A DNA stretch of 36,267 nucleotides, from positions 1-36,267 of the IMG/VR virus record IMGVR_UViG_3300046170_000218. One strand, given 5' to 3'. The notes under the pieces are model-generated. The model saw nothing but the letters and a program-made list of their open reading frames with translations, ran no database searches and was not told where the DNA came from. Source of the stretch: a virus. The position numbers and the translations under genes are program-made. This document shows, in pieces, positions 11,074 through 30,831 of this stretch (positions are counted from its first letter, which is position 1; the number at the start of each line of letters is the position of its first letter).

Positions 11074-11663
11074 TGGCGATTTCATATCCGATTACAACGC
11101 CGACCGGGAACGCGATCAGGTCAGTGACCTTCACAGCGACGAACGCTGTCGCTTATTCTCGATCGCCTTTTACGTTTGAGGGTCAGTCTCACGCCTACGC
11201 TGGCGAGATGTGGTCAGCCGACATATCACTCAAGCCGATGGCTGAGGATGACGCTGAGGCGTGGAGCGCTTGGCTGACGAGCCTCAGAGGCCGACACGGC
11301 AAGTTTTACCTGGGCAATCCGTTTCGCAACTCTCTGCGCAGCTCAGCCGCTCCCAGCTCCGTCACAATCACAGGGTCGGCGGGTGCTCGGAGCGTCACAG
11401 TCGTAATGACCGGAACGCTTTTGGCTGGCGATTATTTCCAGCTCGGAACGGGTGCATCCTCACGGCTTTACAAAGTCCTCGCGGACCAGACGGACGGCGG
11501 AACCCTTGAGATCTGGCCGGCACTTAGAGACGCAGCGTCAACATCGGCGGCGGTCATATCAAGCCCGGTCGGGACTTTTCGCTTGGCGTCAAACGATGTC
11601 TCCTGGAACGTCAACAATTTGCGCCATTACGGAATATCATTTGGAGCGATGGAAGCGATATGA
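11073..11663 (+). CDS. Putative distal tail protein
   Basis: A 196-residue beta-rich protein in the position of distal tail proteins (directly after the tape measure; GTA gp12 or lambda gpM/gpL region). Visible features are R-S-V-T-F-T-A-T-N-A-V-A-Y-S-R-S-P-F-T-F near the N-terminus, a W-S-A-W-L-T-S-L-R-G-R-H-G-K-F-Y-L-G-N-P-F segment at about residues 62-82, and a W-N-V-N-N-L-R-H-Y-G-I-S-F end. The conserved G-K-F-Y-L-G-N-P-F pattern is one I associate with phage minor tail proteins, but I cannot assign a named family with certainty. Start ATG overlaps the tape measure stop (TAATG). Confidence 0.65.
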   Translation: MAISYPITTPTGNAIRSVTFTATNAVAYSRSPFTFEGQSHAYAGEMWSADISLKPMAEDDAEAWSAWLTSLRGRHGKFYLGNPFRNSLRSSAAPSSVTITGSAGARSVTVVMTGTLLAGDYFQLGTGASSRLYKVLADQTDGGTLEIWPALRDAASTSAAVISSPVGTFRLASNDVSWNVNNLRHYGISFGAMEAI

Positions 11664-12259
11664 GCCGCAACATAAGCACAAGTCTATTAAACCAGCTTTA
11701 CGCTGACGGCGATCCAACCGGGAGCCTTCAGGATATTGAGCCATTTTATGCAATCGACTTAGATTTTGAAGGCGGCAACTTGCGCCTCTGGACTGGCACA
11801 GGAAATCGGACAATCCAGGGCCATTCGTTTCTTGGGACTGGTTCGCTTCTAAAAATCGACGGGATCGAGGAAATCTCAGACCTGTCAGCCAGAGGAGCGA
11901 CGCTTACGCTTTCCGGTTTAAGCTCAACAATTATTTCAACCGCATTGACCGAGGATTATCAGGGCCGCTCGGCCGCTGTTTATTGGGGCGTTCTGGGAAC
12001 GTCGTCGGTCGTCAATGTCTTCAGTGGGTTTATGGACAAGATGACGATCGTCGACGAGGGCGAGATGTCGACCGTAAGCCTGACGGTTGAGAGCAAGCTG
12101 ATCGTCTTGGAGCGAGCAAGCGCGCGGCGCTACACTCACGCGAGCCATCAGGCAACTGTCGCGACGGAGGGATACAGCCAAAGCCCTGATACGATCTTTA
12201 AATGGGTCACAAGATTGGCGGATAAACAGATCCCTTGGGGTCGTCAGCTTGACAGCTAA
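11660..12259 (+). CDS. Tail hub-like protein, DUF2163-type
   Basis: A 199-residue protein with the layout of DUF2163/GTA gp13-like distal tail hub proteins. It opens with a helix, then F-Y-A-I-D-L-D-F-E-G-G-N-L-R-L-W-T-G, followed by D-G-I-E-E-I-S-D-L-S-A-R-G-A-T-L-T-L-S-G-L, a W-G-V-L segment and V-F-S-G-F-M-D-K-M. The gene overlaps its neighbour upstream by an ATGA and the peptidase-like gene downstream by 11 nt. The order distal protein, hub, NlpC/P60-like, tip matches the GTA tail tip operon. Confidence 0.7.
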   Translation: MSRNISTSLLNQLYADGDPTGSLQDIEPFYAIDLDFEGGNLRLWTGTGNRTIQGHSFLGTGSLLKIDGIEEISDLSARGATLTLSGLSSTIISTALTEDYQGRSAAVYWGVLGTSSVVNVFSGFMDKMTIVDEGEMSTVSLTVESKLIVLERASARRYTHASHQATVATEGYSQSPDTIFKWVTRLADKQIPWGRQLDS

Positions 12260-21502: not shown

Positions 21503-22168
21503 ATGTTTGGTTTTTCACCTTTTGCCGGATCCGCGTTCTCTGATGAGGGCGTCGTCACTTATGCACTAACGCCTAGCAGCATCACGGTCACGCCGGTCGT
21601 TTCAAGCTCGGCAATGGTTGAAAACGAAACGTTCAGCGCTCCAGCCCTTACGGCTGGCGCTCCTGTTTTACAGTCGGCGGCAATGTCCGAGGACGAGACG
21701 CTTTCGGCGTCTAGCTTAGAGGCTGGCGTCCCGGTTTTGGGATCCTCAGAAATTGACCAGAAACACAATCTGGTCGGCTCTGGGGTCAATTCAACGCCTG
21801 TTCTGGGCGCGCCTGACATTGATCAAGGTCATGACCTGGCTGGCACTAGCTTTGCGGCTCATACACCAACTCTAGGCGCTCCGGAGATTGACCAGGATCA
21901 CCGGATCACAGCGACAAATCTATCAACACAATCGCCGGTCCCGGCGGCTGTCACGATGTCAGAGGACGAGAGTTTCACCGCTGACAACCTAGTCGGCGGG
22001 TCACCTAGCCTGGGCGACCCTGACGTCGATCAAGAGCACGATCTGGCGGCTGATAGCATCACCGGCACAGGACCGGCCATCGCGGACATCGTTCTCGGCC
22101 AAATCGAAGTTCTCGGAACAACCGGCGTTCTTGCCGGGAGCGCTGCCCTGGGATCATCCTGCATTTAA
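21503..22168 (+). CDS. Repeat fibre protein, N-terminal part (frameshifted)
   Basis: First part of a protein built from 22-24-residue tandem repeats. A short start (M-F-G-F-S-P-F-A-G-S-A-F) leads into units such as P-V-L-G-A-P-D-I-D-Q-G-H-D-L followed by 9 more residues. Two flavours alternate: x-I-D-Q-x-H-x-L and x-M-S-E-D-E-T-L. The open frame ends at 22168 because a single extra T (22160) shifts it; removing it restores the exact 23-residue period into the next frame. The whole protein would be about 693 residues and probably forms an elongated fibre. Confidence 0.75.
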   Translation: MFGFSPFAGSAFSDEGVVTYALTPSSITVTPVVSSSAMVENETFSAPALTAGAPVLQSAAMSEDETLSASSLEAGVPVLGSSEIDQKHNLVGSGVNSTPVLGAPDIDQGHDLAGTSFAAHTPTLGAPEIDQDHRITATNLSTQSPVPAAVTMSEDESFTADNLVGGSPSLGDPDVDQEHDLAADSITGTGPAIADIVLGQIEVLGTTGVLAGSAALGSSCI

Positions 22169-23582
22169 TCAAGGACAAACCTTAGACGCGAATGATTTAG
22201 AAACGCAAGCGCCGGTCCCGGCGGCTGTCACGATGTCAGAGGACGAAACGCTGAGCGGCGTCAGCATCGCAGCAAGCGCGCCGGTCTTAGCGGCTCCCGA
22301 TATTGATCAAGATCATGACTTAAGCGGCGATGCGGTGGCCTCTCAAACGCCTCGCCTGGGCTCTCCGGATATCGGTCAGGGTCACACAATCACGGCCTCA
22401 GCGTTGCTCTCAGCGGCTCCCGTTCCAGGCAATGCAAACATGGCAGAGCGCGAGACACTCACGATCGCCGACATCGTGATCCCTGCTTATGTTTTCGGTT
22501 CACCAGACATCGATCAAGAGCACGAACTGACAGGATCAAATCTCGTCGGATCAGCGTTCAACTTAGCATCGGCGGCAATGTCCGAGGAGGAAACGTTAGG
22601 CGGAGCATCGATCGTCGCTGGATCCCCAGAAATTTCGACAACTACGTTTACTCTATCAGTCACACTCGATGGGAACGACATCGCTGTCGGCGCGCCGATC
22701 GTCGGCTCCACAGCGATCGACCAACGCCACAACCTTACCGGCGACAGCCTAACACTCGCCCCGGCTGTTGCGCCTGTCGCAATGTCGGAGGACGAAACGT
22801 TTGCGACTGACGGCATCCTAAGCGGGTCTCCGGCTTTGGTGAGTGCAATCATGGTCGAGAATGTCGTCATGAGCGCCGACAGCATCACAGCGCTTGCGCC
22901 GGTCGTCCCAGAGACAGCGATGGCAGAGGACGAAACCCTTGCGGGTGTTCCATTGGCTATCGGCTCCCCTGCCCTGGGAAGTCCAGAGATCGACCAGGAT
23001 CATCAGCTCACCTCGCCAGACTTGGCGGCTCATACGCCAACCCTCGGCGAGCCCGACATTGACCAGGATCATCAACTCACATCATCCGCCCTCGAGAGCG
23101 CGCCGCTGTTGGCCGAGCCTGATTTCAGTCAGGATCACGACTTGGGCGCTGGCTCGATATCTCTACGATCGCCCGACGTTCCAGCCGCGACAATGTTCGA
23201 GGAGGAAACACTCACAACCGGCGATTTGGAAACTGACAGTCCGGACCTTGCTGATCCTCAGATTTCTCAGGTTCACGACCTGGCGGCGAATGCGGTTCTT
23301 TCAGCGCCAGTCATTGCAGACGCAAACTTTGTTCAAATTCACGACTTGGCGGGTGTATCGATCGCCTCTGGATCCCCGAGCCTGGGCGTTTCGCCTGAGC
23401 TTGTTCAAATCAGTTACCTTTTCGCAACGAACTTAAACGCCGGGACGCCTAGAATACCGACGCTCGTTTATGACATCGGGCTCCCGCGTCTGGTCAGCAT
23501 TGACCAGGCATCATTCAACCTTGTCGTCGTCAGAACGTCGACAAACTCAATCACTTATAATGAGGAAAATGACGCGGCATGA
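22131..23582 (+). CDS. Repeat fibre protein, C-terminal part (frameshifted)
   Basis: Continuation of the repeat protein in the +1 frame from 22161; the nominal TTG start at 22131 has no ribosome site and encodes nonsense until the repeats begin at A-F-N-Q-G-Q-T-L. About 19 further repeats follow (most 23 residues, a few 22 or 24), giving about 27 in total with the upstream part. The last 60 residues lose the repeat pattern and end in E-E-N-D-A-A. The stop overlaps the next gene start. This part could be a separate nonfunctional piece, or be fused through +1 recoding. I judge it part of one gene. Confidence 0.75.
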   Translation: MPGALPWDHPAFNQGQTLDANDLETQAPVPAAVTMSEDETLSGVSIAASAPVLAAPDIDQDHDLSGDAVASQTPRLGSPDIGQGHTITASALLSAAPVPGNANMAERETLTIADIVIPAYVFGSPDIDQEHELTGSNLVGSAFNLASAAMSEEETLGGASIVAGSPEISTTTFTLSVTLDGNDIAVGAPIVGSTAIDQRHNLTGDSLTLAPAVAPVAMSEDETFATDGILSGSPALVSAIMVENVVMSADSITALAPVVPETAMAEDETLAGVPLAIGSPALGSPEIDQDHQLTSPDLAAHTPTLGEPDIDQDHQLTSSALESAPLLAEPDFSQDHDLGAGSISLRSPDVPAATMFEEETLTTGDLETDSPDLADPQISQVHDLAANAVLSAPVIADANFVQIHDLAGVSIASGSPSLGVSPELVQISYLFATNLNAGTPRIPTLVYDIGLPRLVSIDQASFNLVVVRTSTNSITYNEENDAA

Positions 23583-29023: not shown

Positions 29024-29215
29024 ATGGCGACAAAGTATAAAACACAGCAAAAACAACGGGTCGCATTGAACACGATGGTCGATCCAGAAATTAAATCCGC
29101 GCTCGATGAAGAAAAAGACATTAAAAAAGTCAGTCTTGCGCATTTGATCGATCAGATCTTGAGGCAGTATTTCGAGGAGGCCAACGATGGCACGAACACC
29201 GTCACAACGCGGTAA
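29024..29215 (+). CDS. Ribbon-helix-helix regulator
   Basis: A 63-residue small protein with the Arc/CopG-like pattern: a basic strand (R-V-A-L-N-T-M-V-D-P-E-I-K) and two helices (V-S-L-A-H-L-I-D-Q-I-L-R-Q-Y-F). Expected to dimerise and bind the nearby operator region through its N-terminal strand. It is the first rightward early gene, with GAGGG before ATG 29024, and overlaps the nuclease gene by 29 nt. Confidence 0.7.
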   Translation: MATKYKTQQKQRVALNTMVDPEIKSALDEEKDIKKVSLAHLIDQILRQYFEEANDGTNTVTTR

Positions 29216-29648
29216 ATTCGCAAAAAATCGCGGGAGCTCGTTTGAGCTGGAAATAAAAAATTTTCTTTTCGATGAGCTTGGCATCGAGTTCAAAAGAAAC
29301 CTCGAGCAAACGCGAACGTCCGGCCTCAGCGATTTAATAACCAATGAGACTAAATTTCCCTTCGCATTAGAGCTTAAGCGGCGTCAGTCAGGTTCGATGA
29401 TCCCGACCGGCGCATGGGCGCAATCAATAAAAGCGTCAGACATCAACGCCGGGATCTATCCAGCCGTCATTTATCGCTACGACCACAGAAAGGCTCGTTG
29501 CGTCGTCCCCTTCTCAGCGATCGCTGAAATGGAAACCGGCCTTTGGACAAAAACAATTCACGATAAAGCCGACATTTCGCTCCCTCGCTTTTGCAAGCTG
29601 GTTCGAGAAATCATGGCCTGGAGAGCACAAAAAAATGACGCGGTTTAA
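29187..29648 (+). CDS. PD-(D/E)XK nuclease (Holliday junction resolvase-like)
   Basis: A 153-residue nuclease-fold protein. An N-terminal E-L-E-I helix is followed by G-I-E-F-K-R-N-L-E-Q-T, then the catalytic core S-D-L-I ... F-A-L-E-L-K-R-R (D, then E-x-K) and a later A-W-A-Q-S. This matches small phage endonucleases thought to resolve junctions or cut branched DNA. The start is the ATG in CGATGGCACG with an AGGAGG site. It overlaps both neighbours. Confidence 0.75.
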   Translation: MARTPSQRGKFAKNRGSSFELEIKNFLFDELGIEFKRNLEQTRTSGLSDLITNETKFPFALELKRRQSGSMIPTGAWAQSIKASDINAGIYPAVIYRYDHRKARCVVPFSAIAEMETGLWTKTIHDKADISLPRFCKLVREIMAWRAQKNDAV

Positions 29649-30831
29649 TTATCTCTCGGTTTGCTCTGGCGTCGAAGCGGCGACGGTCGCTTGGCATGGC
29701 CTTGGGTGGTCTCCGACAGCATTCAGCGAGATTGAAGCCTTTCCGAGCGCAGTCCTCGCTCATCATTATCCAAGCGTCCCTAACTTGGGCGACATGTCAA
29801 AATTTAAGGAGTGGCCTGATGACAGAACAGTTGACCTTTTGGTCGGAGGCACACCATGCCAATCGTTTAGCGTCGCAGGATTGCGAAAGGGTCTGGATGA
29901 TCCGCGCGGCAACCTCATGCTCACATATCTTGCCATTGCTGAACGATATGCTCCCCGCTGGATCGTCTGGGAAAACGTCCCCGGCGTTCTGTCAAGCAAC
30001 CGAGGACGAGATTTTGGAACCTTCCTTGGGGCGTTGGCTCAACTCGGGTATGGGTTCGCTTACCGAGTGCTGGACGCTCAGTTCTTCGGAACACCCCAGC
30101 GACGGCGTCGCGTGTTCGTTGTCGGACGTCTTGGAAGCTGGCAACGTGCCGGAGCGGTTCTTTTTGAGCGAGAAAGCCTGTTCAGGCATACTCCGCCGAG
30201 CCGAGCGTCGCGGAAAGAAGTTACCGGAACAGTTACAACGCGCTCTGGAAGCGGTGGCGGCGGCGGAATAGGCACGGACGAGGCTTGTAGCGGGTTTTTG
30301 CAACCAACTTGGCCAGCTAAAGTCGCCTCAACCCTTAACGCAGCATTTGCTAAAAAGCAGGGCTTGGAAGATCAGCATATAAACGGCGGCGCTCCGCTTT
30401 TTGTGCCGCAAAGCACTGGCCCACTAACAGCCGGAATGGGTAAGGGGCCAAGAGGAACGGAAGCGGTCGAAAGCAATCATGTCATAGCGTTTTCATCAAA
30501 AGATTACGGCAATGATGCTGTTAATGATTTGTGCCCCACTCTAAGGGCTGGCGGTGCGTACAACGCGAATGCGGGTGTACCGCCAGCGGTGGCACAAGCC
30601 AGCGCAGTACGCCGCCTAACGCCAACCGAGTGCGAGCGTTTGCAGGGTTTCCCCGACAACTACACGCAAATTCCATACCGCAACAAGCCAGCAGAAAACT
30701 GCCCTGATGGCCCTCGATACAAGGCGATGGGCAACTCAATGGCGGTCCCTGTCATGCGGTGGATCGGTCGTCGGATCAATTTTATCGACCAAATAGATGA
30801 CCTTAAATTGGAGCGCAAAAATGACCTATGA
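29635..30831 (+). CDS. DNA (cytosine-5) methyltransferase
   Basis: C5 methyltransferase, 398 residues. It has motif I (residues about 7-23, S-V-C-S-G-V-E-A-A), motif IV G-G-T-P-C-Q-S-F with catalytic Cys 75, motif VI E-N-V-P-G (113-117) and motif VIII Q-R-R-R-R-V (155-160). A Gly-rich variable region and target recognition region follow, then R-R-L-T-P-T-E-C-E-R-L-Q-G-F-P-D and G-N-S-M-A-V-P near the end. It methylates phage or host DNA, likely protecting against restriction; the target sequence cannot be read from sequence. A second, out-of-frame gene lies inside it (29819-30271). Its stop overlaps the exonuclease start by 11 nt. Confidence 0.92.
   Translation: MTRFNYLSVCSGVEAATVAWHGLGWSPTAFSEIEAFPSAVLAHHYPSVPNLGDMSKFKEWPDDRTVDLLVGGTPCQSFSVAGLRKGLDDPRGNLMLTYLAIAERYAPRWIVWENVPGVLSSNRGRDFGTFLGALAQLGYGFAYRVLDAQFFGTPQRRRRVFVVGRLGSWQRAGAVLFERESLFRHTPPSRASRKEVTGTVTTRSGSGGGGGIGTDEACSGFLQPTWPAKVASTLNAAFAKKQGLEDQHINGGAPLFVPQSTGPLTAGMGKGPRGTEAVESNHVIAFSSKDYGNDAVNDLCPTLRAGGAYNANAGVPPAVAQASAVRRLTPTECERLQGFPDNYTQIPYRNKPAENCPDGPRYKAMGNSMAVPVMRWIGRRINFIDQIDDLKLERKNDL
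29819..30271 (+). CDS. Nested gene within the DNA methyltransferase (alternate frame)
   Basis: A 150-codon ORF in the +1 frame inside the methyltransferase gene. Its ATG has AAGGAG at 7-nt spacing, one of the best ribosome sites in the window. The product starts M-T-E-Q-L-T-F-W-S-E-A and ends with a coherent basic helix region (V-P-E-R-F-F-L-S-E-K-A-C-S-G-I-L-R-R-A, then R-R-G-K-K-L-P-E-Q-L). I recall very similar small proteins from other phages, lying with or overlapping cytosine methyltransferases, so the frame appears conserved. Function unknown; it could modulate the methyltransferase or a host defence. Confidence 0.7.
   Translation: MTEQLTFWSEAHHANRLASQDCERVWMIRAATSCSHILPLLNDMLPAGSSGKTSPAFCQATEDEILEPSLGRWLNSGMGSLTECWTLSSSEHPSDGVACSLSDVLEAGNVPERFFLSEKACSGILRRAERRGKKLPEQLQRALEAVAAAE

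Follow-up and report, generated by a model that had tools for sequence, protein, structure and literature searches.

The cytosine methyltransferase gene of this virus almost certainly holds a genuine overlapping gene in a second reading frame, and the conserved end of its product is shown by sequence profile comparison to be homologous to a segment that one-chain enzymes carry in the methyltransferase frame itself. The window, by which we mean the whole 36,267-nucleotide stretch of DNA analysed (IMG/VR virus record IMGVR_UViG_3300046170_000218), encodes a C5-cytosine DNA methyltransferase (MTase), and the nested open reading frame (ORF) lies in the +1 frame of that gene (Table 1). The original prediction, made by inspection of this DNA, had given the position of the ORF, its +1 frame and an AAGGAG at 7 nt from the start, and all of these coordinates are confirmed. 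On the MTase, the ORF runs from inside codon 62 to codon 212, and the overlap takes in the catalytic Cys75, the ENV motif and motif VIII. Motif IX (RRLTPTECERLQGFP) is present in the MTase frame and absent from the nested protein. A longer form of 191 aa, starting at 29696, is not the conserved version, since most relatives have a +1 stop near MTase codon 51 and a start at the column of 29819.

Table 1. Features of the MTase gene and of the gene nested in it, in window coordinates.
Feature	Position	Strand	Details
C5-cytosine DNA methyltransferase (MTase), outer frame	29635..30831	+	398 aa; PF00145 E 7.7e-54, residues 4-381
Nested gene	29819..30271	+	150 aa + stop; ATG start; +1 frame of MTase
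AAGGAG Shine-Dalgarno (SD) site of nested gene	29806..29811	+	7 nt ahead of ATG; in the MTase frame, Lys58-Glu59 of 'FKEW'
Nested protein, N-terminal part	29819..30085	+	Residues ~1-89; overlaps MTase motifs IV to VIII
MTase connector, putatively displaced	30116..30169	+	Nested residues 100-117, 'SLSDVLEAGNVPERFFLS'; homologous to canonical in-frame segment after motif VIII
Nested protein, C-terminal helical part	30170..30262	+	Residues 118-148, 'EKACSGILRRAERRGKKLPEQLQRALEAVAA'; helices 118-131, 137-148
MTase catalytic Cys75 codon	29857..29859	+	Motif IV PCQ; within overlap
MTase motif VIII	30097..30111	+	QRRRR; in canonical enzymes the connector follows it in frame

Selection on the second frame

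An open +1 frame in one GC-rich gene is weak evidence for a gene, whereas the same frame across relatives is decisive. Long alternative frames are frequent in GC-rich genes, and shuffles of single genes gave p up to 0.56, as would suit a reading in which there is no gene and the similarity in +1 is either cast as a shadow by MTase conservation or due to a constraint on the RNA. Because MTase conservation alone would give the +1 frame a similar look, all null expectations were obtained by shuffling synonymous codons inside each gene. In each of 81 loci selected by their MTase, the +1 frame is open at the same place for 156 codons or more, with a median of 159 codons versus 69 in the +2 frame. 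Among 136 MTases below 80% identity, the +1 frame has 12 stops versus 414 expected, and the +2 frame, serving as an internal control, has 701 versus 686. Stop codons in this frame of related MTases had been named in the original prediction as what would speak against it; all 12 are outside the nested ORF proper, past its end or before a later start, and none interrupts it in the 136 relatives. The pairwise identity of the nested frame in the same set is 0.517 versus 0.262 (sd 0.0013) in the shuffles; sequence pairs share kinship, and this and the other selection figures are effect sizes rather than exact probabilities, with effects that are very large.

The bounds of the nested ORF also mark the limits of synonymous constraint on the MTase. 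For MTase-synonymous differences in 115 MTases, the observed to expected ratio is 1.02 upstream of the nested ORF, 0.59 inside and 0.99 downstream, with the strongest constraint (0.21-0.24) over the part that codes for the nested C-terminus (MTase residues 181-204). Where the MTase has Arg or Leu, synonymous changes at the third codon position, which fall in nested codon position 2, go from 0.44 outside to 0.25-0.34 inside, while first-position changes, which fall in the nested wobble position, are not reduced (0.07-0.09 outside, 0.10-0.12 inside). A constraint at the RNA level would not yield a pattern in which first-position changes are free and third-position ones are reduced. The supposition that both frames are under selection is thus borne out, within the nested bounds and with codon-position specificity.

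The overlap pattern repeats independently in the AT-rich phages of Firmicutes, whose MTases were gathered with a Brochothrix MTase query and have a GC content mostly of 0.33-0.50. Open +1 frames occur in 39 of 40 non-redundant MTases versus 0.05 expected; these 40 were chosen by the connector motif described below, and openness was scored also over the roughly 95 codons upstream. This set has a single +1 stop versus 234.6 expected, and synonymous differences at the conserved connector end are 0.17-0.23 of expectation. The pattern is absent from 30 chromosomal control MTases, taken as the best PF00145 matches within one phylum, which have 192 +1 stops versus 193 expected and of which none is open. 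Shuffling removes the shadow, and together with the codon-position, AT-rich and control results it refutes the reading without a gene, to which we give almost no credence.

The start column is conserved across relatives as ATG, TTG or GTG, with the start codons of some divergent groups assigned by position only. Of 134 nested starts, 87 have an SD core ahead of them, compared with 41.5 (sd 4.5) expected under synonymous recoding. At the SD site all 38 Lys codons are AAG (background 0.53), and 40 of 51 Glu codons are GAG. These codon choices show that the predicted ribosome signal is under selection, and the ribosome site that had been claimed for the ORF holds up among its relatives. From the conserved start, the SD site and the open frame we infer that the nested gene is translated from its own start within the MTase mRNA.

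Three other places in the window stand out. The 483-aa gene at 22131-23582 has long open stretches in both alternative frames, 187 codons in +1 (ORF 22894-23436) and 163 in +2, with p ≤0.005 against synonymous shuffles; this may be low complexity or another overlap. The 199-codon gene at 11660-12259 has a +2 open run of 106 codons that was unmatched in 200 synonymous shuffles. Two genes upstream of the MTase, a small ORF at 29024-29215 looks CopG/ribbon-helix-helix-like by eye.

Distribution and annotation of the nested gene

A protein search of the nested ORF against phages had been proposed as a check, together with the expectation of similar proteins within or next to the MTases of other phages. 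By tblastn the nested protein matches 144 phage records. In the examples with hand-checked coordinates the match is offset by one base from the phase of the annotated MTase coding sequence, and a script check of 171 loci found every one to follow the +1 frame of an MTase. When genomes were scanned with the nested alignment, the best 80 bacterial loci, from Proteobacteria, Acidobacteria, Planctomycetes, Verrucomicrobia and Spirochaetes, likewise all had this arrangement. When loci were picked by the DNA pattern of the nested frame and MTases were disregarded, the best 80 were again all in +1 of an MTase. The expectation therefore stands for the inside of MTase genes in many phages and is not supported for their neighbourhood, as every one of the 331 loci (171 + 80 + 80) is inside an MTase gene and no nested homologue outside one was found among them. 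Nor did a standalone homologue appear in the pattern-chosen viral contigs, GTDB genomes or phage records examined. Plasmid matches to the nested protein are under MTase annotations or in unannotated stretches.

Among the hundreds of phages with the nested gene are P1 and P7, where it is in dmt, and nearly all of the 72 P1-like dmt loci read have it too. Through P1-like elements it is present in some 9% of the complete genomes of E. coli (493/5,426). In the P1-like loci (L431-L502), the final ~20 nested residues come in about three versions, and these covary with the start of the variable region of the MTase, as if carried along by swaps of the target-recognition domain (TRD). In two bacterial loci, L202 and L237, the MTase frame is truncated or shifted and the nested frame is still open; in L237 it is joined to the MTase C-terminus. 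In three Omegavirus mycobacteriophages (L510, L511, L512) an HNH gene or intron interrupts the MTase near the nested region, and the Schatzie record states that the intron boundaries could not be determined.

The nested protein has no matching family in Pfam or NCBIfam and no sequence relative in the PDB, and it has probably been overlooked by annotation. PHROG 16143, named 'DNA methyltransferase', is made up of nested-frame sequences. The methyltransferase-named families that match the nested frame, and so hold second-frame sequences, are PADLOC PDLC03324, phrog_16143 and phrog_1008; gp104 of Mycobacterium phage Thibault is a gene call on part of the nested frame. PHROG 16143, phrog_1008 and Thibault gp104 all contain nested-frame sequences, but they are annotated as MTase by position or as hypothetical and not as an overlapping gene. 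The nested frame explains the mis-framed PHROGs and PADLOC entries.

Origin of the conserved C-terminus

The two parts of the nested protein behave differently. The N-terminal part is always open, moderately conserved (synonymous observed to expected ratio 0.51-0.88) and modelled with low confidence. In an AlphaFold2 model, folded from an alignment without the rows from phage records, pLDDT is about 40-58 at the N-terminus and about 90-95 in the C-terminal part (residues 118-148); the model is good for the final 40 residues, which include the two helices of Table 1. Foldseek and VIA returned no informative match for the full nested protein or for its C-terminus.

The consensus of the conserved C-terminus is 'LSDxLE..VpekYfLS..c..iLrrAekRgk'. 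Canonical one-chain C5-MTases have, in frame between motif VIII and the TRD, 'LIDILETDVDEKYFLSDEKVKKL' or 'VxDKYTLSDKLWxYLQxYAAKHxxKGNGFG'. In the MTases with a nested gene, the MTase frame at that place reads 'VGHLRGSGGRKVFPIGEN' (Firmicutes phages) or 'VGRLGSWQRAGAVLFERESLFRHTPPSR' (the window), and the +1 frame reads 'LSDILEDQVDEKYFLSEK' or 'LSDVLEAGNVPERFFLSEKACSGILRRAERRGK'. A hidden Markov model (HMM) built from 44 of the +1 connectors matches ten other MTases in frame 0, at 20-36 residues past motif VIII, with a best E of 2.8e-11, and has no match in the +2 frame or in reversed sequences. In a profile-profile comparison, the proteobacterial (window-type) nested C-terminus scores 21.8 against the canonical 'VxdKYtLSxkLWxYLqxYAxKH', and 200 column shuffles reached 15.4 at most. 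An origin of the entire nested ORF by de novo overprinting was considered and, on these HMM and profile matches to the canonical segment, is rejected for the C-terminus; overprinting of the N-terminus is possible.

Of 252 MTases, 210 show the connector in the nested frame only and 8 in the MTase frame only; none shows it in both, and 34 show it in neither. The 8 in-frame cases come from few lineages, and the 34 are diverged controls at the threshold used. Three loci (L531, L545, L578) combine an N-terminal half of the nested class with a C-terminal half having the connector in frame, and their nested ORF ends at motif VIII; L551, L561 and L571 carry the connector in +1. Apparently the former three regained an in-frame connector by recombination at motif VIII. 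As the connector is in frame in diverse chromosomal MTases, a move from the MTase frame into the +1 frame is the simpler direction, and we infer this move. The nested class may have a single origin, on an MTase tree whose deep branches are weak.

The nested product and known systems

Control of the MTase and action against host defence had been offered as possible roles in the original prediction. What the product does would follow most directly from the homology of its conserved end to an MTase segment, which is why we favour a small partner of the MTase, either a subunit or a regulator, docking where the connector normally sits; we put the chances of this at about even. In the proposed sequence of events, the ancestral in-frame connector would have shifted into the +1 frame in this class of MTase, leaving an MTase chain that no longer shows it. 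The nested product, loosely constrained at its N-terminus and helical and conserved at its C-terminus, would then work in trans on the MTase that the shared mRNA also encodes, possibly docking on the catalytic domain or hinge, in the connector's place in one-chain enzymes. Such a separate connector-bearing chain could complete or regulate the MTase, serving as a small subunit that helps the enzyme to fold and to work, or else as a stoichiometric regulator. Counting against a subunit, the MTase frame alone retains its PF00145 motifs, IX included, and with these in the main chain activity without a partner is possible. It is possible, though we hold it only tentatively, that a very large class of phage C5-MTases, the cytosine half of P1 Dmt among them, consists of two-chain enzymes in which the nested small subunit supplies the connector in trans after a frame change removed it from the main chain.

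Other roles can be imagined for the product. Anti-restriction is a common role of phage MTase loci, the nested gene is present in phages and prophages of many hosts, and its N-terminus has conserved features of its own, all of which would suit a separate phage effector (anti-restriction or anti-defence) that does not act on the MTase. We consider this unlikely, given that the gene is never free of an MTase in 331 loci, that its conserved end derives from an MTase segment and that its only defence-family matches are to mis-framed 'MTase_II' entries; beyond this last point, the results tell neither for nor against anti-defence. The reading as a small DNA-binding regulator with a ribbon-helix-helix (RHH)-like C-terminus, perhaps one that represses its own MTase operon in a role like that of the C proteins of restriction-modification systems, appears quite improbable. 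The strand-helix-helix layout, the gapless register with the RHH consensus, the basic C-terminus and a match of Pfam RHH_1 to 2 of 134 members at E 0.023 made this fold suggestive early. The profile match is weak, however (8.9, P 0.08, equalled by 4 of 150 shuffles), and it was outscored by the canonical MTase segment, whose much higher score was reached in 0 of 200 shuffles. No RHH structure is among the Foldseek matches, where the C-terminus found no relative at all, a result that weighs neither way on the fold or on the partner reading.

A further reading is programmed frameshifting: ribosomes on the MTase would slip at motif VIII into the nested frame and join the N-terminal half of the MTase to the old connector. 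Since the connector is in +1 directly past motif VIII, a single slip would restore the canonical order, and in Firmicutes phages the constraint is concentrated on the connector. A slip would have no need of the selected start and SD site, nor of the ~95 upstream codons that are also open in 39 of the 40 Firmicutes MTases, and the fusion product would be without the TRD and motifs IX and X, and we regard this mechanism as very improbable.

The partner reading has parallels among split enzymes. Like the nested-class MTases, M.EcoHK31I is a C5-MTase with a second small polypeptide bearing a piece of the canonical enzyme. Its small chain is reportedly encoded in another frame within the gene of the large chain. 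The difference is that this small chain has motif IX, which in the window is in the MTase frame. M.EcoHK31I (YGGCCR) and M.AquI are described as natural two-polypeptide C5-MTases (PMC3404938; for M.EcoHK31I also PMC3439449, with Lee, Kam and Shaw 1995 as the work cited), and the former source places motif IX of M.EcoHK31I on the small polypeptide and the TRD on the large one, and gives the interval between motif VIII and the TRD as the best split point of C5-MTases (PMC3404938). In M.AquI and the artificially split M.HhaI, M.SssI and M.BspRI, two chains likewise assemble to an active C5-MTase, but they are split end-to-end in separate or tandem genes rather than by a nested second frame. At the sequence level, the nested gene has what marks a split MTase, namely a second polypeptide bearing a segment that is in frame in one-chain enzymes.

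A second protein in another frame within a phage methylase gene is also known from mycobacteriophages, where the ShiLan-type out-of-frame HNH endonuclease is a mobile insertion, patchy and without a ribosome site (PMC11855218). The gene of the window overlaps the catalytic core (motifs IV-VIII), is fixed among the relatives examined, comes with an SD site and lacks any Pfam match to HNH; the two differ in every respect tested.

The nested gene would combine two known kinds of arrangement, an overlapping gene and a naturally split MTase, and no description of it as a second-frame gene was found in the literature searched. To our knowledge, full-length overlapping genes with both frames under selection and conserved across phyla are rare in bacteria and phages, and this one has been hidden in a common gene and in the textbook phage P1. 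The case suggests that part of an enzyme can become a protein of its own through a change of reading frame. If the nested product is a needed subunit, recoding (codon optimisation) of such MTase genes for expression would destroy it unnoticed.
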